A DNA stretch of 32,223 nucleotides from Streptosporangiales bacterium. GTDB lineage: Bacteria > Actinomycetota > Actinomycetes > Streptosporangiales > WHST01. The notes beneath the pieces are model-generated. The model had not been told where the DNA came from, made no database searches, and saw only the letters and a list, made by a program, of their open reading frames with translations. Made by a program: the position numbers and the translations under genes. The stretch is taken from the NCBI GenBank assembly GCA_009379825.1, contig WHTA01000016.1, positions 1 through 32,223 of the forward strand, given 5' to 3'. Shown here piece after piece: positions 7,880 to 23,703 of the stretch. Positions within the stretch are counted from its first letter, which is position 1; the number at the start of each line of letters is the position of its first letter.

Positions 7880-8629
7880 ATGGAACGGACGGGTACGTAC
7901 ATCTACGGTGTGGGCAAGGTGATCCCTTCCGGATCGCTCCACGGGTTGCGCGGGGTTGCAGGTGCCGAGGTGCGGACGCTCGAGCACCGTGGGCTCGCGG
8001 CCGCCGTGAGCGACGTAGACCTGGACGAGTTCGGCGCGGAGGGTCTGCGGCGGAACCTGGAGAACCTCGACTGGGTCGCCAACGTCGCGTGGGCACACGA
8101 CGAGGTCGTCAAGGCGGTAGCGGCGCGCGCGGCCGTGGCACCGCTGCGCATGGTGATCGTCTGCCTCGGCGACGACAGCGTTCGCGCCAAGCTGGACGAG
8201 ATGTACGACGACATCCAGGCGATCCTGTCCCGGATCGAACATCGAGTCGAGTGGGGCGTCAAGGCGTTCCTCGACGACGGACCGAGGCGTGCCGATCGTA
8301 CGCAGGTCGAGTCCGGCGCTGCCTATCTGCGGAGGCGTAGCACCGAGCTCGAGTCGCACGGGACGACAGAAACAGCGGCCGCGGAGGTGGCCGACGGGTT
8401 GCATGCCGCGCTCGACGTGGAGGCGTTCGCGAGTCGGCGGCATCCGCCGCAAGACAAGACGCTGAGCAGACACCGGGGGCGGATGATCCTCAACGGCTCA
8501 TACCTCGCCGGTACGGGCGAGGGCGGTGCGTGGGAGGACAGGATCGAGTACCTGCGTCAGCAACACCCCGACGTGCGGCTCCGACTCACCGGTCCCTGGC
8601 CGCCGTACTCGTTCGCCGAGCTGGACTAG
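7880..8629 (+). CDS. Gas vesicle protein GvpF/GvpL family, copy 3 (249 aa)
   Basis: A third GvpF/L paralogue: TYIYGVGKVIPSGSLHGLRG, then AVAPLRMVIVCLGDDSVRAK and EHRVEWGVKAFLDDG, ending RLRLTGPWPPYSFAELD. The region GRMILNGSYLAGTGEG corresponds to the family's second domain. It is the last gvp gene, 22 bases after gvpK with a clear AGGAG before the ATG. No gvpN (AAA ATPase) is present in the window, as in several actinobacterial clusters. Confidence 0.9.
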   Translation: MERTGTYIYGVGKVIPSGSLHGLRGVAGAEVRTLEHRGLAAAVSDVDLDEFGAEGLRRNLENLDWVANVAWAHDEVVKAVAARAAVAPLRMVIVCLGDDSVRAKLDEMYDDIQAILSRIEHRVEWGVKAFLDDGPRRADRTQVESGAAYLRRRSTELESHGTTETAAAEVADGLHAALDVEAFASRRHPPQDKTLSRHRGRMILNGSYLAGTGEGGAWEDRIEYLRQQHPDVRLRLTGPWPPYSFAELD

Positions 8630-8658
8630 CCGGTGGCAGCCTGGGCACTGGCCGCCGG
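8630..8658 (+). promoter_or_regulatory. Hairpin between the last gvp gene and the LigD-like gene
   Basis: CCGGTGGC (8630-8637) can pair with GCCGCCGG (8651-8658, one G-U pair), leaving a 13-nt loop. It starts one base after the gvp stop codon and reaches into the GGAGG (8657-8661) of the next gene. It could weaken read-through or translation of the polymerase gene. The fold is a prediction by eye. Confidence 0.35.
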
Positions 8659-8664
8659 AGGTGT

Positions 8665-9624
8665 ATGCATTACGGGCCCTGGGTAGAAGCGGATCCCATG
8701 GGACGGCGAGATGGTGACGGCGAGCTGAAGGTCGGTCGGCGCCGGGTCGGCATCGGCAACCCGGGGAAGGTGCTGTTCCGCGACGTCGGTGTCACCAAGC
8801 GCGACCTCGCTGCCTACTACCGTGACGTCGCCGCGGTGATGCTGCCGCATATCCGCGGGAAGCCGTTGGCACTGCACAGGTTCCCCGACGGGATCGATGC
8901 AGACGGGTTCTTCCAGAAGCAGCTGCCCGCGAGTGCACCCGAGTGGCTCGGCCGGGTCACCGTACCCCGCGAACGTGGCGGCGAGATCACCATGACCCTG
9001 TGCGAGGACGCGGCGTCGCTCGTCTACCTTGCCGATCAGGCCGTGGTGGCCATTCACCCGTGGCTGACGACGACGGAGGACCTGTGGCTGCCGGACCGCA
9101 TGGTCTTCGACCTCGATCCTCCAGGCGACGACTTCGTTGTGGTGCAGCGCGCCGCGCTCGAACTGCGTGACCTGCTCGACGACCTCGGGCTGCCGTCGTT
9201 CGTCATGACGACGGGGTCGCGCGGTCTGCACGTCGTCGTACCGTTGCGCCTTGTGGAGGACATCGACGACGTGCGCGACTTCGCCAGGCAGGTCGCGGAC
9301 CTGCTGGCGGGACGTCATCCCGAGCAGCTGACCACGGAGGTGCGCAAGGAGAAGCGAGCCGGTCGGCTGTTCTTGGACGTGCTGCGTAACGCGTACGGAC
9401 AACACGCTGTGGCGCCCTACTCGGTGCGTGCGCTGGTAGGTGCTCCAGTGGCCATGCCGCTGCGCTGGAACGAGGTGGCGGACGACCAGCTGACACCGCG
9501 GCGATGGGGCGTCCGCGACGTCGAGAAGCGATTGGCCGACGATGGTGCTCCGTGGCACGGCATGCGAAGGCGTGCACACACGCTCGGACCGGCCCGTAGC
9601 CGGTTGGCAGCCGTCAGGGACTGA
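8665..9624 (+). CDS. Stand-alone LigD-type primase-polymerase (319 aa)
   Basis: Matches the polymerase (POL, archaeo-eukaryotic primase) domain of the NHEJ enzyme LigD. The catalytic aspartates are visible: FDLDP at 148-152 (D149, D151) and the third in LFLDVLRNAYGQ (D238), followed by APYSVRA. RGLHV (H189) is the nucleotide-binding histidine motif. No ligase or nuclease domain is attached, so it is a separate polymerase as in several actinobacteria, probably filling DNA ends with Ku and a ligase encoded elsewhere. ATG at 8665 has GGAGG but a short spacer; ATG at 8698 is an alternative start. It follows the gas vesicle operon in the same direction after 35 bases, so co-expression under stress is possible. 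Confidence 0.85.
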   Translation: MHYGPWVEADPMGRRDGDGELKVGRRRVGIGNPGKVLFRDVGVTKRDLAAYYRDVAAVMLPHIRGKPLALHRFPDGIDADGFFQKQLPASAPEWLGRVTVPRERGGEITMTLCEDAASLVYLADQAVVAIHPWLTTTEDLWLPDRMVFDLDPPGDDFVVVQRAALELRDLLDDLGLPSFVMTTGSRGLHVVVPLRLVEDIDDVRDFARQVADLLAGRHPEQLTTEVRKEKRAGRLFLDVLRNAYGQHAVAPYSVRALVGAPVAMPLRWNEVADDQLTPRRWGVRDVEKRLADDGAPWHGMRRRAHTLGPARSRLAAVRD

Positions 9625-11620: not shown

Positions 11621-11708
11621 CACCCCGGGCCCGGATGGGGACTACTGACCGGTCCGTGCACCATAATGGCACCGTACGTGCGCGAGCTGCGCGGAGAGGC
11701 GGTGCCAG

Positions 11709-12971
11709 GTGGCTTCCCGGGTGTCGGCGAAGCAGCGGCGGCGGCTGAAGATCGTCGACGTCGCCACCGAGCTCCTCGACGAGAGGGGCTACGGCCGCAC
11801 CACGATGGACGACATCGCGGCCGCGGCCGGGATCACCAAGCGCACCCTCTACCGTTACGTGCCGAGCAAGCCGGTCATCCTGCCGATGATCCACGAACGG
11901 TTCGTCGAGGCCGCGGACGAGCTGATTCCACCCGACGCCCAGCATGACGACCCGGCCGAGCACATGGCCGCCTTCATCGAGTCGTACGTCACGGTCGTCG
12001 TCCGGCACCAGGGCGCGATCCGGGTGTTCTTCGAGGAGGAGTACAACCTCACCGCCGAGGCGCGGGAACAGATCGTCGGCCGGCGCGATACGTTCGAGGC
12101 GCGCTTCCGCAAGCTCGTGCGCAAGGGCCAGGAGTCCGGCCAGTTCCGCGGCTGCGACGTCGAGGTCGTGTCCGCCGGGGTGTTCGGCGCGCTGGCGAGC
12201 ATCTACCGCTGGTACTCGCCTTCCGGGCGGTTCGGCATCGGTGACCTGGCCTCGTTGATGTCCAGGCTCCTGCTCGTCGGTCTCACCGAGACCGACGACA
12301 CGTCGCCCCGAGCCGACGACGTCATGCCACCGCGGACGGCCACCGGGTCGGACGCCGAGCAGGAGCCGCCGACCGCGGTGCCGGCCGCGGTCCTCTCCGC
12401 TGCGACCAGGCTCTTCGCCACCCAGGGGTACCTGGAGACCAACACCCGCGAGATCGCGGAGGCAGCGGGGGTCACGAAGAGCGGGCTCTTCTACCACATC
12501 GGGTCGAAGGAAGAGCTCCTCTACGCCATTCACCACCGGTTCGGGATGGAGAACCTCGAGAACCTGGCGAGGTGGACAGCCGAGGCGGGACCGGCTGCCG
12601 ATGCCGCGGCGAGGCTACGCAAGCTGGTCGTAGAACACAGTCGGGTGATGGGCGACCGGCCGTACCACGTAAGGGTTTTCACCGACCAGGCGCGCTACCT
12701 GAGTGCGGCGAAGCGCCCTCATATCGAGGCGCTGCGGGCACGTTACGTCGACGGTTTCGAGGACGTCGTACGGGCGGGGATCGCCGACGGCGTGTTCAAG
12801 AACCTGCACCCGCGCATCACGACGCTCGCCGTGCTCGGCATGTTGAACTCGATGTCCCGGTGGTTCCGGCAGGACGGCCGGCTGTCGGCTGACCGCATCG
12901 GTGCCGTCTTCGCCGACCTCGTCCTCACCGGGCTGGCGGCGCGCGACGGGCGCGGTCAAACCACCTCGTAG
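11709..12971 (+). CDS. Tandem double TetR-family regulator (420 aa)
   Basis: Two complete TetR units in one chain. HTH 1 at about 14-60: DVATELLDERGYGRTTMDDI then AAAAGITKRTLYRYVPSK. HTH 2 at about 226-272: SAATRLFATQGYLETNTREI then AEAAGVTKSGLFYHIGSKEE. Each is followed by its own helical ligand-binding half; a polar linker at about 195-222 joins them. TetR proteins normally work as dimers of about 200-residue chains, so this is effectively a single-chain dimer with two different halves. GTG at 11709 follows GAGAGGCGG. It converges on the monooxygenase gene (16-base overlap) and probably controls the divergent promoters that carry the shared 24-bp motif. Confidence 0.88.
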   Translation: MASRVSAKQRRRLKIVDVATELLDERGYGRTTMDDIAAAAGITKRTLYRYVPSKPVILPMIHERFVEAADELIPPDAQHDDPAEHMAAFIESYVTVVVRHQGAIRVFFEEEYNLTAEAREQIVGRRDTFEARFRKLVRKGQESGQFRGCDVEVVSAGVFGALASIYRWYSPSGRFGIGDLASLMSRLLLVGLTETDDTSPRADDVMPPRTATGSDAEQEPPTAVPAAVLSAATRLFATQGYLETNTREIAEAAGVTKSGLFYHIGSKEELLYAIHHRFGMENLENLARWTAEAGPAADAAARLRKLVVEHSRVMGDRPYHVRVFTDQARYLSAAKRPHIEALRARYVDGFEDVVRAGIADGVFKNLHPRITTLAVLGMLNSMSRWFRQDGRLSADRIGAVFADLVLTGLAARDGRGQTTS

Positions 12972-14917
12972 TCGTCGAGCCGTGGTGCCCTGGTCATCTG
13001 CCAGAGGTCGATCAGCCGCCACGGTGAGTTCGTCACCACCCGGCCACGGTCGTTGCGGTACCAGGTCTGCATGCCCGGATGGCTCCAGATCAGGCCGGCG
13101 TGCGCCTGGTCGATCTCGTCGTTGTGCCGGTCGCGTAGGTCCTGCCTGCACTCCAGGCTGGTGCCGCCACGTTGGATCAGCTGCTCGATCAGCCCCATGA
13201 TGTAGCGCACGTGGCATTCGGTGATGAACAACAGGCTGCCGCCGTGCCCGAGGTTGGTGTTGGGGCCGTAGAGGAAGAACATGTTCGGGAACCCGTGCTC
13301 GGTCATGCCGAGATACGCACGCGCGTCGTCGTCGCCCCACTGGTCCCGCAGCGCGACCCCGTCGCGTCCGCGGACGTCGAAGGAACCGAGCAGCCGTAGG
13401 CTGTCGAAGCCGGTGGCGTAGACGATGACGTCGACCTCGTGGTCGACACCGTCCTTCGTGCGGATCGCGTCGGTGCCGATCGACTCGATCGGCGTGGTCT
13501 CGAGCGAGACGTGCGGCAGCCGCAGTGCACGGAACCAGCCGCTGTCGAGCAGCATCCGCTTGCCGAACGGCGGGTAGTCGGGCAGTGCCTTCTCGAGCAG
13601 GTCCGGCCGGCCTTCCAGCTCGCTCCGGATGTACGACGTGAAGTACCTCCGGTACCCGTCGTTGATCGAGTTGACGGCGGTGTCGGTGCACGACCAGTCG
13701 GGGTCGATGACGAGGTTGTCGTAGACCTTGTCGCCGAACACCCAGGCCTGCCGCATGCGGTACCAGGCGGCGTAGAAGGGCACGTGCGCCATCAGGTAGC
13801 GGGTGTCGTCCGAGACCTCGCGCGTGTACTCGGGGTTCGGCGCGATCCACTGCGGTGAACGCTGGAACACCGTCAGCTCGGCGACCTCGTCGGCGATCGC
13901 CGGCACCAGCTGCATGGCACTCGCTCCGGTGCCGACGACCGCGACCCGCTTGCCGCGCAGCGAGAGGTCGGCCGGCCACCGCGCGGAGTGGAACTGGTCG
14001 TGCGCGAACGTCTCCTGGCCGGGGATCGACGGGATCTTCGGTTGGTTGAGCTGGCCGACGGCCGTCACGAGGAACCTCGCGTCCAGCTCCACCTGGGTGT
14101 CGTCGGGGCCGGTGGCGCGGACGTGCCAGGTGTCGGTCGCCGCGTCGTAGCTGGCCGCGTCGACGCAGGTGTCGAAGAGGATGTGCTCGCGGAGCCCGAA
14201 CCTGTCGACCGTCGCGTCGAGGTACGCTTGTACGTCGTCGCGCTTGGAGTAGTAGTGCGACCAGGAGACCGGGTTGAAGGAGAACGAGTACCAGTAGCTC
14301 GGCGTGTCCACGCCGCAGTCCGGGTAGCGGTTCTCGTACCAGGTGCCGCCCACGGTCGGGTTCTTCTCGACGATGGTGAACGGGATGTTGGCCTGCTTCA
14401 GCTGCACCGCCATGCAGATGCCGGACGCACCGGCGCCGACGATGACGGCGGAGTACTCCTCGTCAGGACGCAGCCGCGCGAGCCGCTCGTTGTCGAAGCG
14501 CGGGCGCATCCCCATCTCCTCGGCCATCATGCCGACGTACTTGGGGGCGACCGGCTCGCCCATGCAGAGCTCCATGATGCGGCCGAGCGCACCCTCGTCG
14601 AGCGCTCGGATCCCGTCCGGGTCATCGGCCCACCGCAGCACAGCCGCCAGCGCCGCGGCCCTGACGGCGGCCCGGGCCTGCTCGGTGAGGCCGCCCGAGG
14701 TGTGGTCAGAGAGCCCCTTCGTCCGGGTCGGCGTGTACGGCGGGTGGAACCAGCGTTCCTCGCCGGTGAGGTGGGTAAGCACGGCGACGAGCGTGGGGAC
14801 GTTCGCGTCGCCGAGCGCGCGTGCCAGGCGGTCGGCGTCGAGTGGCTCCGCGGCGGCGTCGCCCAGCGTGACGATCGGTCGGAATGGTGCACGGCATGAC
14901 GTCGCCGGACGTGGCAC
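12956..14917 (-). CDS. Baeyer-Villiger-type flavin monooxygenase (653 aa)
   Basis: A class B flavoprotein monooxygenase: FAD site VIVGAGASGICMA (161-166), NADPH site VAVVGTGASAMQ (about 327-335), and the Baeyer-Villiger fingerprint region FAHDQFHSARWP (304-315). An N-terminal extension of about 155 residues before the FAD motif is like that of 4-hydroxyacetophenone monooxygenase, which acts on aryl and larger ketones. The reaction would be ketone + O2 + NADPH to ester or lactone. The fingerprint glycine (FxGxxxHxxxWP) is histidine here. GTG at 14917 was chosen because AAGGGGTG precedes it; the open frame above it runs antisense through the ligase gene. A TATACT -10 lies 38 bases upstream, within the shared motif. 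Confidence 0.85.
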   Translation of the reverse strand: MPRPATSCRAPFRPIVTLGDAAAEPLDADRLARALGDANVPTLVAVLTHLTGEERWFHPPYTPTRTKGLSDHTSGGLTEQARAAVRAAALAAVLRWADDPDGIRALDEGALGRIMELCMGEPVAPKYVGMMAEEMGMRPRFDNERLARLRPDEEYSAVIVGAGASGICMAVQLKQANIPFTIVEKNPTVGGTWYENRYPDCGVDTPSYWYSFSFNPVSWSHYYSKRDDVQAYLDATVDRFGLREHILFDTCVDAASYDAATDTWHVRATGPDDTQVELDARFLVTAVGQLNQPKIPSIPGQETFAHDQFHSARWPADLSLRGKRVAVVGTGASAMQLVPAIADEVAELTVFQRSPQWIAPNPEYTREVSDDTRYLMAHVPFYAAWYRMRQAWVFGDKVYDNLVIDPDWSCTDTAVNSINDGYRRYFTSYIRSELEGRPDLLEKALPDYPPFGKRMLLDSGWFRALRLPHVSLETTPIESIGTDAIRTKDGVDHEVDVIVYATGFDSLRLLGSFDVRGRDGVALRDQWGDDDARAYLGMTEHGFPNMFFLYGPNTNLGHGGSLLFITECHVRYIMGLIEQLIQRGGTSLECRQDLRDRHNDEIDQAHAGLIWSHPGMQTWYRNDRGRVVTNSPWRLIDLWQMTRAPRLDDYEVV

Positions 14918-14950
14918 AGGATCACCCCTTGGCGATAAAGTATCCTGGTT

Positions 14951-14974
14951 GGTCAGTATACATTTTGCCGGCGG
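14951..14974. promoter_or_regulatory. Shared 24-bp motif, copy 1 (divergent promoter)
   Basis: GGTCAGTATACATTTTGCCG followed by GCGG. It matches copy 2 at 18686-18709 in 21 of 24 positions and in the same orientation relative to the flanking genes. On the minus strand it contains TATACT (14960-14955), a good -10 for the monooxygenase. On the plus strand it would cover the -35 area of the ligase gene, whose possible -10 is TATGGT (14976-14981). Its centre, CAGTAT-AC-ATTTTG, is an imperfect dyad. Probable operator of the tandem TetR regulator. Confidence 0.7.
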
Positions 14975-15019
14975 GTATGGTCGCGACACGGGTACACCCG
15001 AGGGCGGGAGGTGTGGCGG

Positions 15020-16594
15020 ATGCTCGAGGTGGCACGGAGGCTCGGCTCGTACGGCGACGTCGAGGCACTCGTGACCGACGACGAGCGGTTGACGTACCAG
15101 GAGCTGGACGAGCGGGTCACGCAGGTCGTGCGCCGGCTGAGCGGACTCGGTGTACGGCGCGGCGGCCGGGTCGGGCTGCTGATGCCGAACACCGCGAGCA
15201 TGATCTGCCACCTGTTGGCCGCGTGGGACATCGGCGCGGTCGTCGTGCCGCTGAACACCCGGTACCGGTCGCACGAGCTGCAGTACGTGGTCGGTCACTC
15301 CGACATCGAGGTACTCGTGACCGGACAGTTCGGCGGTGGCTTCCCTGACCTGGGGGAGCGGCTGCTGGCCGCCTTCCCCGCACTGCGTACGCAGGCCGAC
15401 CCGCTCGCACTGTCCGTGCCGGACGCGCCGGCGCTGCGCAGCATCGTCATGCTGGGCGCGGCGCCCGTCGAACCGGCGTTCGTCACCGCCGAGCAGTGCG
15501 ATGCGCTCGCGGCGGACCTGCCGGCGGACCGCGCGGCCGACGACGAGCTGCTGCTGATCTACACATCCGGCACGACAGCGCACCCCAAGGGCGTCGTGCA
15601 CTCGCTCGGCGCCTTCGTGCAGACAGCCCGCCACACTGCCGCGTCGATGGGGGTGCAGGTGGGTGACGTGGTGTGGGACCCGCTGCCGCTGTTCCACACC
15701 GGCGGCCTGCTGCCGTTGCTCGGCACGCTCGACCTGGGCGCCACCTTCGTGACGTCCGCGCACTTCGACCCGGGCACCGGGCTCGAGCTGCTCGCCAGGG
15801 AGCGGGTGACCGCCGCGTACGTCGCGTTCTCCACCTTGGTCACGTCGCTGCTCGACCACCCGGACTTCGCGACCACCGACGTGTCGGCGCTGCGGTGGAT
15901 CCTCGCCATCGGTCCCGAGGGTCTGCTCGACCGCGTACAACGGAGCCTGCCGGGTGCTGTGCAGGTCTCCTGTTACGGGTGCACGGAAGCCGGCGGCGTC
16001 GTCGTGTACAACGATGTGACAGACCCCGCGGCGGCACGCGCCACGACGGCGGGGAACCCGTTCCCCGGCGTGCAGATCCGCATCGTCGACCCGGTGCAGG
16101 GACGGCAGGTGAACGCCGGCGGTACGGGGGAGATCCAGGTGCGCAGCGACGCGGTGCTACGCCGCTACCACCGCGAGCCAGCGTCACCCGTGGACGGCGA
16201 GGGGTGGTTCGCCACCGGCGACCTCGGTCGGTTCGACGACGACGGCAGGCTGGTCTTCCTCGGCCGGCTGAAGGACATGTTCAAGATCGGCGGCGAGAAC
16301 GTGGCTGCGTCGGAGATCGAGTTCGTGCTGGCCGCACACCAGGCGGTGACCTTCGCGCAGGTCGTCTCCGTGCCTGACGAGCGGCTGTCCGAGGTGGCCG
16401 CGGCGTTCGTCGAGCTGAAACCAGGCGCGGCGGTGACCGCGGACGAGCTGCGCGAGTTCTGTGCGCAGCGGCTGGCCTCGTTCAAGGTGCCACGGCACGT
16501 ACGGATGGTGGAGGAGTGGCCGATGTCGGCGACGAAGGTGCAGAAGTTCAAGCTCCGCGACCAGCTCCTCGACGAGCTCGCTGTCGGCGCATGA
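15020..16594 (+). CDS. AMP-forming acyl-CoA ligase (524 aa)
   Basis: An ANL-superfamily ligase: ATP P-loop LLIYTSGTTAHPKGVVHS, SCYGCTEAGG, then GWFATGDLGRFDDDGRLVFL followed by GRLKDMFKIGGENVAASEIE, and a C-terminal SATKVQKFKLR carrying the adenylation lysine. It would activate a carboxylic acid with ATP and CoA; the acid may be that released by the adjacent esterase. ATG at 15020 is preferred over a GTG at 15011 because GGGAGG (15006-15011) is eight bases before it and the GTG overlaps that ribosome site. Divergent from the monooxygenase; ATGA overlap with the next gene. Confidence 0.87.
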   Translation: MLEVARRLGSYGDVEALVTDDERLTYQELDERVTQVVRRLSGLGVRRGGRVGLLMPNTASMICHLLAAWDIGAVVVPLNTRYRSHELQYVVGHSDIEVLVTGQFGGGFPDLGERLLAAFPALRTQADPLALSVPDAPALRSIVMLGAAPVEPAFVTAEQCDALAADLPADRAADDELLLIYTSGTTAHPKGVVHSLGAFVQTARHTAASMGVQVGDVVWDPLPLFHTGGLLPLLGTLDLGATFVTSAHFDPGTGLELLARERVTAAYVAFSTLVTSLLDHPDFATTDVSALRWILAIGPEGLLDRVQRSLPGAVQVSCYGCTEAGGVVVYNDVTDPAAARATTAGNPFPGVQIRIVDPVQGRQVNAGGTGEIQVRSDAVLRRYHREPASPVDGEGWFATGDLGRFDDDGRLVFLGRLKDMFKIGGENVAASEIEFVLAAHQAVTFAQVVSVPDERLSEVAAAFVELKPGAAVTADELREFCAQRLASFKVPRHVRMVEEWPMSATKVQKFKLRDQLLDELAVGA

Positions 16595-17517
16595 GTGACG
16601 GCGTGAGCGAGCTCGCGGACGACGGCCGGCTGAACCCGTCCGTCGTCGGTCTGGTGCGTGCGCTGCGGCGGCACGCGCCGCAGCCGGACTGGCCGATCAC
16701 CGAGCACCACCGACGGTTCGAGGATGCGGCCGCGGGCAGGCAGCTCGCGCCGGGCGTGGACCTGCGGTCGGTCGCGACGCCCGGCGGGCAGGCGGAGTGG
16801 GCGGTACCCAGTGGCGCCGAGCACGGCGATGCCGTGCTCTACCTGCACGGCGGCGGGTTCATCATGGGGTCGCTGGCCACCAGCCGCCCGTTCGCCACCC
16901 ACCTCGCGGCCGCCGTCGGCCGGCCGGTGCTGACGCTCGGCTACTCGCTGGCGCCTCAGGTGCGGTTCCCCACCCAGCTGGACGAGGTGCTGCGCTGCCA
17001 CGCCTGGCTGCTGGACGAGGGGTTCGCGCCCGAGCGGCTGGTGCTCGTCGGTGACTCGGCCGGTGCCTGGCTCGTGTTGGCCGCGCTGCTGCGGCTGCGC
17101 GCGAGCGGCGCCACGCTGCCGGGTCGGGCCGTGCTGCTCTCGCCGTTGCTCGACCTCGCGCTCGCCTCGCCGTCGATCGACGAGTTCGCCGGTTACGACC
17201 CGCAGACGCCGCGCTGGCTGCTCGAGACGATGTGCGACGCGTTCCTCGGCGACGTCTCGGCCACCAGCCCGGCCGTGGCGCCGCTGCATGCCGACCTGCG
17301 CGGCCTGCCGCCCACGCTCGTCCAGGCCGCCGAGCTCGAGGGGCTGCGCGGCGACGCGGAACGCTTCCACGCGGCGGCCGTAGCGGCTGGCACCGACTGC
17401 GAGCTGGAGACCTGGCCGGGCTTGATCCACGTCTGGCACGCGTTCGCGCCACGGCTGCCCGAGGCGGTCGACGCACTGCAGCGGATCGGGGCCTGGCTGG
17501 ACGCTAGGCAGCCCTGA
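16591..17517 (+). CDS. HSL-type alpha/beta hydrolase, esterase (308 aa)
   Basis: A hormone-sensitive-lipase family esterase: oxyanion motif HGGG (86-89), nucleophile elbow GDSAG (S156), and the catalytic histidine near the end (GLIHVWHAF). It would hydrolyse an ester, plausibly the product of the neighbouring Baeyer-Villiger enzyme. The ATG at 16591 overlaps the ligase stop by four bases. The longer frame from 16516 lies inside the ligase gene. Its end overlaps the convergent thiolase by 14 bases. Confidence 0.86.
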   Translation: MSDGVSELADDGRLNPSVVGLVRALRRHAPQPDWPITEHHRRFEDAAAGRQLAPGVDLRSVATPGGQAEWAVPSGAEHGDAVLYLHGGGFIMGSLATSRPFATHLAAAVGRPVLTLGYSLAPQVRFPTQLDEVLRCHAWLLDEGFAPERLVLVGDSAGAWLVLAALLRLRASGATLPGRAVLLSPLLDLALASPSIDEFAGYDPQTPRWLLETMCDAFLGDVSATSPAVAPLHADLRGLPPTLVQAAELEGLRGDAERFHAAAVAAGTDCELETWPGLIHVWHAFAPRLPEAVDALQRIGAWLDARQP

Positions 17518-18631
17518 GTACGGTGGCGGTGCCGAGACCACCGCCGCAGCACATGGTGACGAGCGCGCGCTGCTTGCCGCGCAGCCGCAGCTCGTGCGCC
17601 GCCGTAAGCAGCAGCCTGGTGCCGGTAGCGCCGACCGGATGCCCGAGCGCGATCGCGCCGCCGTTGACGTTCACCGCTTCGAGCGGGACGTCGATGTCCG
17701 CGAGCCACGCGCCGAGCACGCTGGCGAACGCCTCGTTGACCTCGAACGTGTCGATGCCCGACACGGGGATGTCCGCGCGCTTCAGGATGCGCTGGGTGGC
17801 GGGGATCGGGCCGGTCAGCTTGAGTACCGGGTCGACGCCGACGAGCTGCTGGTGCTCGATCTCCGCCAGCGGCGCGAGCCCGTGCGTCCTGACGTACGCG
17901 TCCGACGCCACGACGACACAGGATGCGCCGTCGGAGATCTGCGAAGAGTTGCCCGGGGTCAGCACGCCTTCGGGACGGAACACCGGCTGCAGCCGGCCGA
18001 GCGACTCCAGCGTGGACGGGCGGGGTCCCTGGTCGGTCTCGACGCCGCCTACGGGGCTGATCTCGCAGTCGAACCGGCCGGTGGCGACGGCAGCCGCGGC
18101 GCGTTCCTGCGAGGCCACGGCGATCTGGTCGCAGCGGGCGCGGTCGAGCCCCCACAGGTCGGCGATGCGCTCGGCAGCCTCGCCCTGGCTGGTGACCTCG
18201 TAGTGCGACCGGTAGGCCGGGGAGTAGGCATCGCCCATCCCGTCGCCGATGTCCTCGCCCAGCGGGTGGCGTGACATGTGCTCGATGCCACCGCAGAGCA
18301 CGACGTCCACCGCGCCGCTGGTCACCAGTGCCGCCGCGTAGTGCACGGCCTGCTGGCTCGAGCCGCACTTGGCGTCCACGGTGACACCGGGCACCTCCTG
18401 TGGCAGGCCCGCGCTGAGCCAGGCGGTGCGCGCGACGTTGTTCGCCTGGTCGCCGGTCTTCGTCACGCAGCCCACGATGACCTGGTCGACGTCGGCCGGT
18501 TCGACCCCGGCCGCGTCCACTGCGGTGACCATGGTGCCGGCGAGGAGGTCGCCGACGTGCTCGTCGGCGAGTACGCCGCCGCGCCTGCCGATCGGAGTTC
18601 GGCGGCCCGCGAGCAGGAAGGCAGCGGTCAT
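17504..18631 (-). CDS. Thiolase family protein (375 aa)
   Basis: A degradative-type thiolase: nucleophilic cysteine in VDAKCGSSQQAVHYAA (C89), GGIEHMSRHP, the covering loop NEAFA, the active-site histidine in NVNGGAIALGHPVGATGTRL, and the C-terminal MCCGGGLGTATV. It would cleave a 3-ketoacyl-CoA with CoA to release acetyl- or propionyl-CoA. ATG at 18631 was chosen with GCGAGGA upstream. Its -10 (TATACT, minus strand 18695-18690) lies in copy 2 of the shared motif, so it is probably co-regulated with the monooxygenase and ligase. Confidence 0.88.
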   Translation of the reverse strand: MTAAFLLAGRRTPIGRRGGVLADEHVGDLLAGTMVTAVDAAGVEPADVDQVIVGCVTKTGDQANNVARTAWLSAGLPQEVPGVTVDAKCGSSQQAVHYAAALVTSGAVDVVLCGGIEHMSRHPLGEDIGDGMGDAYSPAYRSHYEVTSQGEAAERIADLWGLDRARCDQIAVASQERAAAAVATGRFDCEISPVGGVETDQGPRPSTLESLGRLQPVFRPEGVLTPGNSSQISDGASCVVVASDAYVRTHGLAPLAEIEHQQLVGVDPVLKLTGPIPATQRILKRADIPVSGIDTFEVNEAFASVLGAWLADIDVPLEAVNVNGGAIALGHPVGATGTRLLLTAAHELRLRGKQRALVTMCCGGGLGTATVLRAA

Positions 18632-18685
18632 CGTGGTCCTCGCATCCAGTCCGACGGGCCGGGTAGACAAAAACTAACCCTGTCC

Positions 18686-18709
18686 GATCAGTATACATAT
18701 TGCCGTCGG
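18686..18709. promoter_or_regulatory. Shared 24-bp motif, copy 2 (divergent promoter)
   Basis: GATCAGTATACATATTGCCG followed by TCGG; 21 of 24 positions equal copy 1 at 14951-14974. It overlaps the thiolase -10 on the minus strand and lies just upstream of a possible MFS -10, TATCTT (18715-18720). The core CAGTAT-AC-ATATTG is an imperfect palindrome; the conserved CCGxCGG extends it on one side only. Confidence 0.7.
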
Positions 18710-18774
18710 CCGGCTATCTTCGTGCGAAGGCGGGGCACTGGTGGCGTCCGTACACCCGAGAGGATGAACCGGCC

Positions 18775-20040
18775 ATGGGGTCAATGGAGATCGACGGAGC
18801 GCGACGCGTCCGTCGTGGCCTGGACAAGTCGCAGCGGGGCGCGTTCCTCGGTGCCCTGATCGGATGGATCTTCGACTACTACGAGGTCTTCCTGCTCACG
18901 CTGTTGGTCATCCCGCTCGCGGACGAGTTCGGTCTGAGCTCGGGCCAGGTCGGGCTGATCCTGTCCATGCAGCTGCTGTTCATGGGCCTGGGCGGCATCC
19001 TGTTCGGGAACCTCGCGGACCGCATCGGGCGCAAGAGAGTGCTCGTGCTGACCGTGTTGATCTTCTCCGTGTTCACACTCGCCCGCGCCGCCTCGCCCAG
19101 CTACGAGGTGCTGCTCGTGCTCACCATCTTCGCGGCGCTCGGCATCGGCGGTGAGTTCGGCGTCGGCCAGACGCTGGTGTCGGAGACGGTGCCCTCGGAG
19201 AGGCGCGGCTGGTACAGCGGCCTGCTCTACGGCGGCATCTACATCGGCATCGTGCTCGGTGCCTTGGTCGGTGGTCAGCTGATGCCGGTGATCGGCTGGC
19301 GGTGGACGTTCGTGGTGTCCGGTCTGCCGGTGCTGTTCGCGCTGTGGGTGCGGCGGCACACGCCGGAGTCTGACGTCTGGCGGCACCACCGCGAGCGGGG
19401 CGAGCAGCGTAAGCAGCGCACGCAGGTCACGCCGCAGATCGTGCGGCTCTGGCTGCTCTGCCTGCTGGCTGCGTGCCTGCAGTTCTTCGCGTACTACGGT
19501 CTCGCCTCGTTCTTCCCCACCTACCTGGTCGAGCAGGGCTCGGACGTCACTGGCGCGTCGACGTGGCTGCTGTTCACCGCGGTCGCGGGCGGCGTGGGCT
19601 GCCTGATCGGTTCCTTCCTGAGCGACCGGCTCGGGCGCCGGCTGACGTTGAGCCTGCTCGCCGCGACCGCGTTCGTCAGCGGCTGCGTGCTCGCGCTCAC
19701 CTGGGAGCACCTGCTCACCAGCACCTGGGTGCTGATCCCGTTCTTCGGGTTCTTCATCGGTGCGAACGGTCCCTCGGTCTTCGGCGCGCTGTTCAGTGAG
19801 AGCTTCCCGGCGCCGATCCGGGCGACCGCGGTGTCGTCGGCACTGCAGGTGGGCAGGAGCATGTCGTTCTTCCCGCCCCTGGTCGCCGCGGCGCTCGTAC
19901 CGACCTTCGGCTACCTGGGAATCGTCTGGGCCAGCGCGGGACTGTTCGGTGCGCTGGCACTCGTGGCCTGGGCCTTCAAGGAGACCCGCGGCAGCGACCT
20001 GGCGGTCGACGAGCAGGCCGCGGCCACCAGCTCGGCGTGA
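18775..20040 (+). CDS. MFS transporter, aromatic-acid/metabolite:H+ type (421 aa)
   Basis: Twelve hydrophobic segments with the MFS signature FGNLADRIGRKRVLV after the second span and a second copy (FLSDRLGRRLTLSLL) in the C-terminal half. The opening GWIFDYYEVFLLTLLVIPLA is typical of proton-coupled organic-acid importers. Import of the pathway substrate is likely but unproven. ATG at 18775 follows GAGAGGA; ATG at 18784 is possible. Divergent from the thiolase and sharing the motif at 18686-18709. Confidence 0.85.
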   Translation: MGSMEIDGARRVRRGLDKSQRGAFLGALIGWIFDYYEVFLLTLLVIPLADEFGLSSGQVGLILSMQLLFMGLGGILFGNLADRIGRKRVLVLTVLIFSVFTLARAASPSYEVLLVLTIFAALGIGGEFGVGQTLVSETVPSERRGWYSGLLYGGIYIGIVLGALVGGQLMPVIGWRWTFVVSGLPVLFALWVRRHTPESDVWRHHRERGEQRKQRTQVTPQIVRLWLLCLLAACLQFFAYYGLASFFPTYLVEQGSDVTGASTWLLFTAVAGGVGCLIGSFLSDRLGRRLTLSLLAATAFVSGCVLALTWEHLLTSTWVLIPFFGFFIGANGPSVFGALFSESFPAPIRATAVSSALQVGRSMSFFPPLVAAALVPTFGYLGIVWASAGLFGALALVAWAFKETRGSDLAVDEQAAATSSA

Positions 20041-21900: not shown

Positions 21901-23703
21901 ATGTCGCGAACACCGGTTGCCTGGCACCCGCGGGGAGAGCTGCGGGTCCGGCTGACGATCGACACGGATCGTCGTGTGCTGTGTGCGAACCGGGAGTTCC
22001 TGGAACGTAACCCTGCGCTGCTCGAGCATGCGCGCAACGCGCTCGCCGACGGCACCCCAGCGGTTCGCTACTACTGGGTGGCCGCGGACGGGCAACCGGC
22101 GCGGGTGACGATCGAGACGTCGGACACCGAGCGTGGGCGGGTCGCGACGCTGCAGGCGGTCGCGGAGCCGCCGCCGTGGGGTCTGACGGTGCGTGAGCAC
22201 GAGGTGCTGACGTGCGTGGCGACCGGGATGACCAACCCGGAGATCGCGGAGTTCCTCAACTGCGCGCGGCGTACGGTCGCGACGCACGTCGAGCACATCC
22301 TCAGCAAGCTGGGGGTGCGGTCGCGTGGCACGGCCGCCGCGTACGCGATGGTCGAGGACGCGTTGCTTGCGCCGCTGCCGCCGATGGTGCAACCGGAGAT
22401 CACGCCGGTCGGGCGGGTGACGTGTGCGCGGGCACGCGCAGCACGTGCCGCCGTCGCGTCCGGGATCGTCGGCAAGCAGGCGAAGGAGAAGCGGGCGATC
22501 AGGCTCGGCGGGATCTACCCGATGCGCGGTGGCCGGCGGCTGGACGCGCTGGCCATGCGGCGCGGCGCGGCGATGGCCATCGAGATGATCAACGAGCGCG
22601 GCGGCATCGGCGGGCGGCGGGTCGAGCACGTGATCGCCGAGGTCACCGGCGACAGCGCGGACGATCTCGTGCCGGCCGTGGAGCGCCTGCAGGCGCACGA
22701 CGTGGACGCCATCACGTTCGGCAACGTGAACCCGCACCACAGCCTGCAGGCGATCAGGCTCGCCGCGCAGTACCGGGCGCCGGTGCTGCACGGCATGGTG
22801 TCGCCGAACATCGTCGAGCACGTGCACGACAACCCGGGCACGCTCGGCCAGACGTTCCAGGTGTGCGCGACCGAGACCACGTACGTCTCCGGGTTCTTCC
22901 GCGCGCTCGACCTGCTGGTGCGTTCGGGGCAGTGGACGCCGCGCAACCGCAGGCTCGCGGTAGTGGTCAGGCAGGCGTCGTACGAGCCGTACCTGAACGA
23001 GCTGGAACGCCTCGGCGCCGCCTACGGCTGGGAGATCCACACCTGCATACCGATCGACGAGGTGGGCACGTCGTGGCCGGACGTCGTGAACGCCGTCGAG
23101 CGCGACGATCCTGCCGCCGTTTTCGTGTGCAGCTACATCGAGGCGGAGCTGCGCAAGTTCCTCGAGGAGATGTACCGCCGTCGGCCGCTGCCGTTGATCT
23201 ACACCGTCTGGACGCCGTCCATCCCGGCGTTCGTGTCGCGGATGGGCGGGCTGGCCGAGGGTCTGCTGTGGTCGACGGTCATCGGCACGTACGAAGACCC
23301 GATCAGCCGCCAGTTCCACCGCGACTTCGCCCGGCGGTTCGGTGAGGACCCTGGCAGCGGCAGCACGGCCATCCATTACGACATGGTCAACATGCTTGCG
23401 GGTGCCTGGTCGCGGCTGGACCGGCCGTGGGACTTCGACGGCGTGGTGCGCTCGCTACGCGAGTCCGTGTACCGCGGCGTCGCCGGCCCGTACTACTTCG
23501 GCGGCAAGGGTCAGCGCGCACTGGCCTATCCGGACGACACCCGCGACGCCTCGCTCGCGCACGTGCACCTCGTGCACCAGATCCAGGACGGGCGCAGCAG
23601 GGTGATCGCGCCGGTCGAGGTGGCCGAGAGCAGCTACCGCGCGATCCAGGACGGCGTCGAGGGCGAACCGAGGCTCGCGCCGCCGTCCACGACGAGGACC
23701 TGA
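21901..23703 (+). CDS. LuxR-type HTH fused to a periplasmic-binding-protein-like sensor (600 aa)
   Basis: Three parts. Residues 1-90: a PAS-like stretch (LTIDTDRRVLCANREFLERN). Residues 94-151: a GerE/LuxR HTH (LTVREHEVLTCVATGMTNPE then IAEFLNCARRTVATHVEHIL). Residues about 199-585: a type I periplasmic-binding fold of the AmiC/urea/branched-chain group (IRLGGIYPMRGGRRLDALAM, RRGAAMAIEMINERGGIGGR, and LIYTVWTPSIPAF). There is no signal peptide or membrane span, so the binding domain works in the cytoplasm as a ligand sensor, like AmiC but joined to DNA binding. It converges on the amide-hydrolase operon (70-base overlap with the SDR gene) and is the natural candidate regulator of the 28.5-kb divergent promoter. 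Confidence 0.85.
   Translation: MSRTPVAWHPRGELRVRLTIDTDRRVLCANREFLERNPALLEHARNALADGTPAVRYYWVAADGQPARVTIETSDTERGRVATLQAVAEPPPWGLTVREHEVLTCVATGMTNPEIAEFLNCARRTVATHVEHILSKLGVRSRGTAAAYAMVEDALLAPLPPMVQPEITPVGRVTCARARAARAAVASGIVGKQAKEKRAIRLGGIYPMRGGRRLDALAMRRGAAMAIEMINERGGIGGRRVEHVIAEVTGDSADDLVPAVERLQAHDVDAITFGNVNPHHSLQAIRLAAQYRAPVLHGMVSPNIVEHVHDNPGTLGQTFQVCATETTYVSGFFRALDLLVRSGQWTPRNRRLAVVVRQASYEPYLNELERLGAAYGWEIHTCIPIDEVGTSWPDVVNAVERDDPAAVFVCSYIEAELRKFLEEMYRRRPLPLIYTVWTPSIPAFVSRMGGLAEGLLWSTVIGTYEDPISRQFHRDFARRFGEDPGSGSTAIHYDMVNMLAGAWSRLDRPWDFDGVVRSLRESVYRGVAGPYYFGGKGQRALAYPDDTRDASLAHVHLVHQIQDGRSRVIAPVEVAESSYRAIQDGVEGEPRLAPPSTTRT

Follow-up and report, generated by a model that had tools for sequence, protein, structure and literature searches.

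Double TetR regulators and the gene cluster of the window

Mce3R of Mycobacterium tuberculosis (Rv1963c; structure 9B7Y) is a single-chain pseudo-dimer, in which two different HTHs bind a non-palindromic 25-bp site and Arg53 and Lys262 contact the DNA (PMC11667970). A literature search for other double TetR regulators found none beyond Mce3R with a studied operator. KstR2, FadR, AibR and PfmR are single-module TetR repressors, several of them of acyl-CoA metabolism. They are homodimers with palindromic operators, and the regulons of repressors of this type resemble the cluster described here in gene content (ligase, thiolase).

The window, i.e. the whole stretch of 32,223 nucleotides from a Streptosporangiales bacterium that was analysed, contains the following genes:

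11709-12971, + strand: double TetR regulator, 420 aa; two TetR_N and two TetR_C_24-type domains (Pfam)
12956-14920, - strand: Baeyer-Villiger-type flavin monooxygenase (Pfam, PDB search); 62-68% identity in related loci
15020-16594, + strand: acyl-CoA ligase (AMP-binding); 56-62% identity in L034 and L035
16591-17517, + strand: hormone-sensitive-lipase-type esterase, in line with the ligase (Pfam)
17504-18631, - strand: thiolase (Pfam); 66-68% identity in related loci
18775-20040, + strand: MFS transporter, aromatic acid/H+ symporter-like; 72-73% identity in L034 and L047
21901-23703: LuxR-type HTH (GerE) fused to a Peripla_BP_6 ligand-binding domain, an unusual predicted regulator (Pfam)

Outside the cluster, two open reading frames were assigned by eye: 7880-8629 resembles a gas-vesicle GvpL/F protein, and 8530-9624 a LigD-type polymerase domain.

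The 11709 protein contains two complete TetR modules in one 420-aa polypeptide according to Pfam. Its structure was predicted from an alignment of three sequences that left out the Rhodococcus homologues. The top Foldseek match of the model is 9B7Y (E 3.7e-12), which is also the only full-length match among the solved structures listed. The superposition on Mce3R aligns 367 residues over positions 4-411 (Z 20.2, rmsd 7.7), with the relative placement of the modules being uncertain at a pLDDT of 74. The recognition helices TKRTLYRYV and KSxLFYHIGSK differ from each other, and each is invariant in all five double TetRs. R49 and K267 correspond to Arg53 (module 1) and Lys262 (module 2) of Mce3R and are likewise invariant in 5/5 homologues.

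Like Mce3R, the protein joins two TetR modules in one chain of roughly 400 aa. Mce3R represses lipid/steroid-type metabolism genes from operators in intergenic promoter regions, which is also where the predicted operators of the window lie. Unlike the published Mce3R sites, which are non-palindromic, 25 bp long and paired 53 bp apart, the window has one recognised site per promoter region, and its class A site (see below) is near-palindromic. Mce3R targets mce3, whereas the cluster of the window consists of ketone catabolism genes. The 11709 protein is not an Mce3R orthologue: it matches 9B7Y only locally (E 3e-16), compared to 72-86% identity among the Mce3R orthologues of Mycobacterium. The fold of KstR2, FadR, AibR and PfmR matches the second module of the 11709 protein over its whole length, but the latter differs from these repressors in having two non-identical modules fused in one chain.

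Repeated blocks and extent of the predicted operator

A sequence-only reading of the window had reported a 24-bp motif that occurs twice in the same orientation, upstream of the ligase and MFS genes, with 21 of 24 positions identical. This could be confirmed. Both copies are on the + strand, they lie between monooxygenase (-) and ligase (+) and between thiolase (-) and MFS (+), and their mismatches are at positions 2, 14 and 21:

14951-14974, + strand: block 1, GGTCAGTATACATTTTGCCGGCGG; right half-site plus window-specific tail TTGCCGGCGG
18686-18709, + strand: block 2, GATCAGTATACATATTGCCGTCGG; right half-site plus window-specific tail TTGCCGTCGG

Searching the window with the 20-mer pattern GRTCAGTATACATWTTGCCG and up to 3 mismatches yielded these two blocks only, with 0 matches expected from shuffled windows. 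For an 18-mer, the next-best match in the 6.15-Mb genome after both blocks had 3 mismatches. No match with at most 1 mismatch was found across 344 other genomes of the order, and the search of family and order returned the genome's own copies only.

The repeat is thus real, but the unit that is conserved between genera extends from further left than had been assumed (14940 and 18675) to about ATACAT. The tail TTGCCG-NCGG is common to the two window sites only and missing in the relatives; as it is unconserved among them, we ruled it out as part of the operator. The leaders of the ligase and MFS genes share a second element, GTACACCCGAGRG, at 14992-15004 and 18750-18762, both on the + strand and just before the gene starts. 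The loci of the relatives contain nothing closely similar, and its resemblance within the window may be due to chance.

Comparison of 12 sites from four genera defined a conserved unit of 22 bp, which consists of a left half GTATM-CTGA, a 4-base spacer (often GCGG or CCGG) and a right half TCAG-KATAC, often followed by AT. The predicted operator is a dyad, CTGA-N4-TCAG, with the outer arms GTATM/KATAC; the left CTG and the right TCAG are invariant in 12/12 sites. Each 24-bp block corresponds to the right half and the downstream flank of this unit, with the left half lying upstream. Because the block of the sequence-only reading began at the right half, the left half was overlooked; the motif is more than a one-sided element. 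The complete predicted operators in the window are:

14940-14961, + strand: operator 1 (class A), GTATCCTGG-TTGG-TCAGTATAC, between monooxygenase (-) and ligase (+); 7/9 dyad matches; counterparts before the monooxygenase in the same orientation at L034 9114, L035 11290 and L038 26904
18675-18696, + strand: operator 2 (class B), TAACCCTGT-CCGA-TCAGTATAC, between thiolase (-) and MFS (+); weak left half, 4/9 dyad matches; counterparts before thiolase/MFS in the same orientation at L034 4415 and L047 10590, and a further counterpart at L038 21191

Class A sites (the monooxygenase promoter and others on the Rhodococcus plasmid) have both arms and are near-palindromic, with 6-9 of 9 dyad matches; the Streptomyces site of this class is a perfect palindrome (9/9). 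Class B sites (the MFS promoter and others) keep the CTG but are missing the outer left arm, and are asymmetric with 3-5 of 9 dyad matches. The information content is 9.7 bits for the left and 10.3 bits for the right half in class A, and 7.8 and 11.6 bits, respectively, in class B. A classical TetR operator, bound by a homodimer and forming a symmetric inverted repeat everywhere, was rejected as a description of these sites, since the outer left arm is absent from class B.

Conservation of the sites together with the regulator

A scan with the regulator against one genome per species (84,980 species) turned up close relatives in just two of them, Mycobacterium sp. NAZ190054 (L034) and Streptomyces sp. 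AJS327 (L035). Two further ones are paralogues on a plasmid of Rhodococcus sp. DMU1 (L038 9294-10559 and 15001-16242). These full-length relatives are 47-57% identical to the 11709 protein, and the comparison comprises five double TetR proteins from four genomes in all. The subtype is rare: it occurs in 1 of 297 Mycobacterium species, 1 of 296 Streptomyces species and, among 394 genomes of the class, in the window's own genome only. A search of 150 relatives gave essentially single-module matches. A literature search on Mycobacterium sp. NAZ190054 found nothing further.

At L034 and L035/L047 (Streptomyces), the monooxygenase (-) lies beside ligase-esterase (+) and the thiolase (-) beside MFS (+), as in the window, with 52-73% identity. 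The Rhodococcus plasmid (L038) carries homologues of the monooxygenase and thiolase and, per annotation, an MFS gene. All matching intergenic regions at these loci contain the 22-bp element. Genome-wide dyad searches of the relatives' genomes found matches only within or beside these clusters. When a weight matrix was trained on the other genomes only, the two window sites ranked first with scores of 41.3 and 37.2, compared to 13.8 for the best of 30 first-order random windows. No comparable site was found at six Rhodococcus plasmid loci whose monooxygenases are 43-50% identical and which lack a double TetR; the best score, 19.6, is located within a ligase gene. The exact class B core was found in the window's own genome only among the 394 genomes of the class, with two others at 1 mismatch.

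The Rhodococcus DMU1 plasmid has a region with seven or more operator-like sites (also L049 19701 and L050 700), which includes two further FAD-monooxygenase genes and an esterase gene. An identification of this module with the skatole cluster of Rhodococcus DMU1 is unsupported: PMC13101512 names a LuxR regulator and makes no mention of TetR.

Searching the window's own genome for the dyad with at most 3 mismatches gave the window sites and one other place, GTAACCATACCGGTCAGTATAC at G000:C20:25486-25507 (L037 1501-1522), with 3 mismatches and a matrix score of 22.9. It lies upstream of a TetR-like gene with a single module and of a divergent gene that resembles a transporter, and is probably that TetR's own operator.

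The double TetR is the sole regulator found in all of L034, L035/L047 and L038. For this reason, and because the same motif stands before the same genes, we assign the predicted operators to it. In principle, they could belong to another regulator. The LuxR-HTH/periplasmic-binding-protein fusion at 21901-23703 is a plausible sensor-regulator of the same cluster, and an unlinked single TetR, such as the one at L037 that is preceded by a similar sequence, could also be considered. However, the fusion has no homologue at L034, L035/L047 or L038, all of which keep the motif, and no single TetR shared by the loci could be identified, so that we regard this explanation as very unlikely. The two sites could also be similar by descent and not by function, if one promoter region had recently been duplicated within the window. 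The tail TTGCCG-NCGG and GTACACCCGAGRG, which are common to the two window regions only, would fit such an event, but the site cores match their own orthologous sites in other genera (class A with A, class B with B), which is unexpected from a recent local duplication and makes it extremely improbable. From these comparisons, it is very likely that the double TetR of the cluster itself (11709-12971) uses both sites as operators; it would be a ligand-released repressor of the whole cluster. The binding by the double TetR that the sequence-only reading had predicted is thus upheld as very probable, though not by way of its asymmetry argument.

Probable overlap of the predicted operators with divergent promoters

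The right half-sites overlap promoter-like hexamers:

14955-14960, - strand: TATACT, probable -10 of the monooxygenase promoter, within the right half-site; about 35 nt before the likely start at 14920
18690-18695, - strand: TATACT, probable -10 of the thiolase promoter, within the right half-site; about 59 nt before the likely start at 18631
18692-18720, + strand: probable MFS promoter; TATACA 18692-18697 (-35 position), 17-bp spacer, TATCTT 18715-18720 (-10)

An overlap of the blocks with the -10 elements of monooxygenase and thiolase, as proposed before, is probable, with TATACT, a good -10 hexamer, on the - strand both times. A strict sigma-70 consensus scan reported no promoter at either site; scans of this kind often find no promoter in high-GC actinobacteria. 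TANNCT, a fair -10, is present on the - strand in the right half of all sites, including 6/6 of class A. In class B, + strand TATAYA/TATACT is followed by TANNNT 16-18 bp downstream in 6/6 sites, compared to 0/6 in class A. The chance of this spacing is 1-5% per site in shuffled flanks; it was first noticed in two of the class B sites, and the remaining four thus constitute an independent test. TTGCCG was ruled out as a -35, as neither promoter has a correctly spaced -10 for it.

Judging from these spacings, the right half would serve both as the -35 of the MFS-type promoter and as the -10 of the opposite gene. Such a double role would account for its stronger conservation without the need for an asymmetric protein. 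Because the class B right half coincides with promoter elements, one-sided conservation does not discriminate an asymmetric from an ordinary TetR, and the sequence-only reading's use of it as a sign of the asymmetric double TetR is not supported on this ground.

The same overlap raises the question of whether the blocks are basal promoters only, i.e. conserved -10/-35 elements that no regulator acts on. The TATACT on the - strand of the right half and the spacing of the class B -35 to TANNNT on the + strand would agree with this. However, the left CTG, the CGG spacer and the TCAG are conserved far beyond what a promoter needs, and the motif is missing from the six related monooxygenase loci without a double TetR and from almost every genome of the class. 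We therefore consider a basal promoter alone to be highly improbable, and repression by the double TetR remains our preferred reading.

Possible autoregulation and possible Mce3R operators

One weak candidate for an autoregulatory site was found upstream of the double TetR gene:

11640-11661, + strand: GACTACTGACCGGTCCGTGCAC, 5 mismatches to the dyad

Its matrix score of 10.4 is within the random range and not significant alone. The Rhodococcus homologue is likewise preceded by a sequence similar to this region, TGACCGG..CGTG..CCATA.TGG. At L034, where the regulator gene comes after the MFS gene, autoregulation may proceed via the class B site.

Scanning the upstream regions of Mce3R orthologues with the matrix gave no match clearly above the random range (best score 14.2). 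An ATACAT-centred element (e.g. ATCAAGATACATC and CAGTACTATCAAGATACATC) is located upstream of 9 of 12 Mce3R orthologues (L054-L065), always in one orientation, pointing away from mce3R. Its right part, TCAAGATACAT, is identical to TCAGTATACAT at 9 of 11 positions. It is possible that this element is the Mce3R operator, with a right half resembling that of the window operators.

Proposed circuit and its significance

What is observed are the sites, the co-occurrence of site and regulator in four genera, and the promoter-like hexamers that the sites overlap. Beyond this, we infer binding, repression and a ligand as follows. The ligand-free double TetR, with two different DNA-reading heads in a single chain, would sit on CTGN-N4-TCAGTATAY. 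On the - strand, it would then cover the -10 of monooxygenase and thiolase; on the + strand, it would also cover the -35 of the MFS gene. Since the right half-site coincides with promoter elements, binding would obstruct RNA polymerase at both promoters of a divergent pair, so that the genes for monooxygenase, ligase-esterase, thiolase and MFS would be silenced together until a ligand, presumably a ketone substrate or a CoA intermediate of the pathway, releases the repressor. An activator instead of a repressor role for the double TetR is possible as well.

A more speculative idea, to which we give little credence, is that a single-chain TetR with unequal heads reads both near-palindromic (monooxygenase) and one-sided (MFS) operators, with the strength or orientation of the second half-site grading the repression of enzyme versus transporter. 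TCAGTATACAT might also be an ancient half-site in common with Mce3R; elements resembling TCAAGATACAT stand upstream of the Mce3R orthologues.

Beside Mce3R, the cluster would represent a second double TetR subfamily. A candidate operator has been defined for it from 12 sites in four genera, its promoter geometry is described, and the target module is intact. This makes near-symmetric versus asymmetric DNA recognition by a two-headed single-chain TetR directly testable. It also provides a candidate ketone-responsive switch for actinobacteria, and the predicted control circuit is present in Mycobacterium, Streptomyces and Rhodococcus, too.
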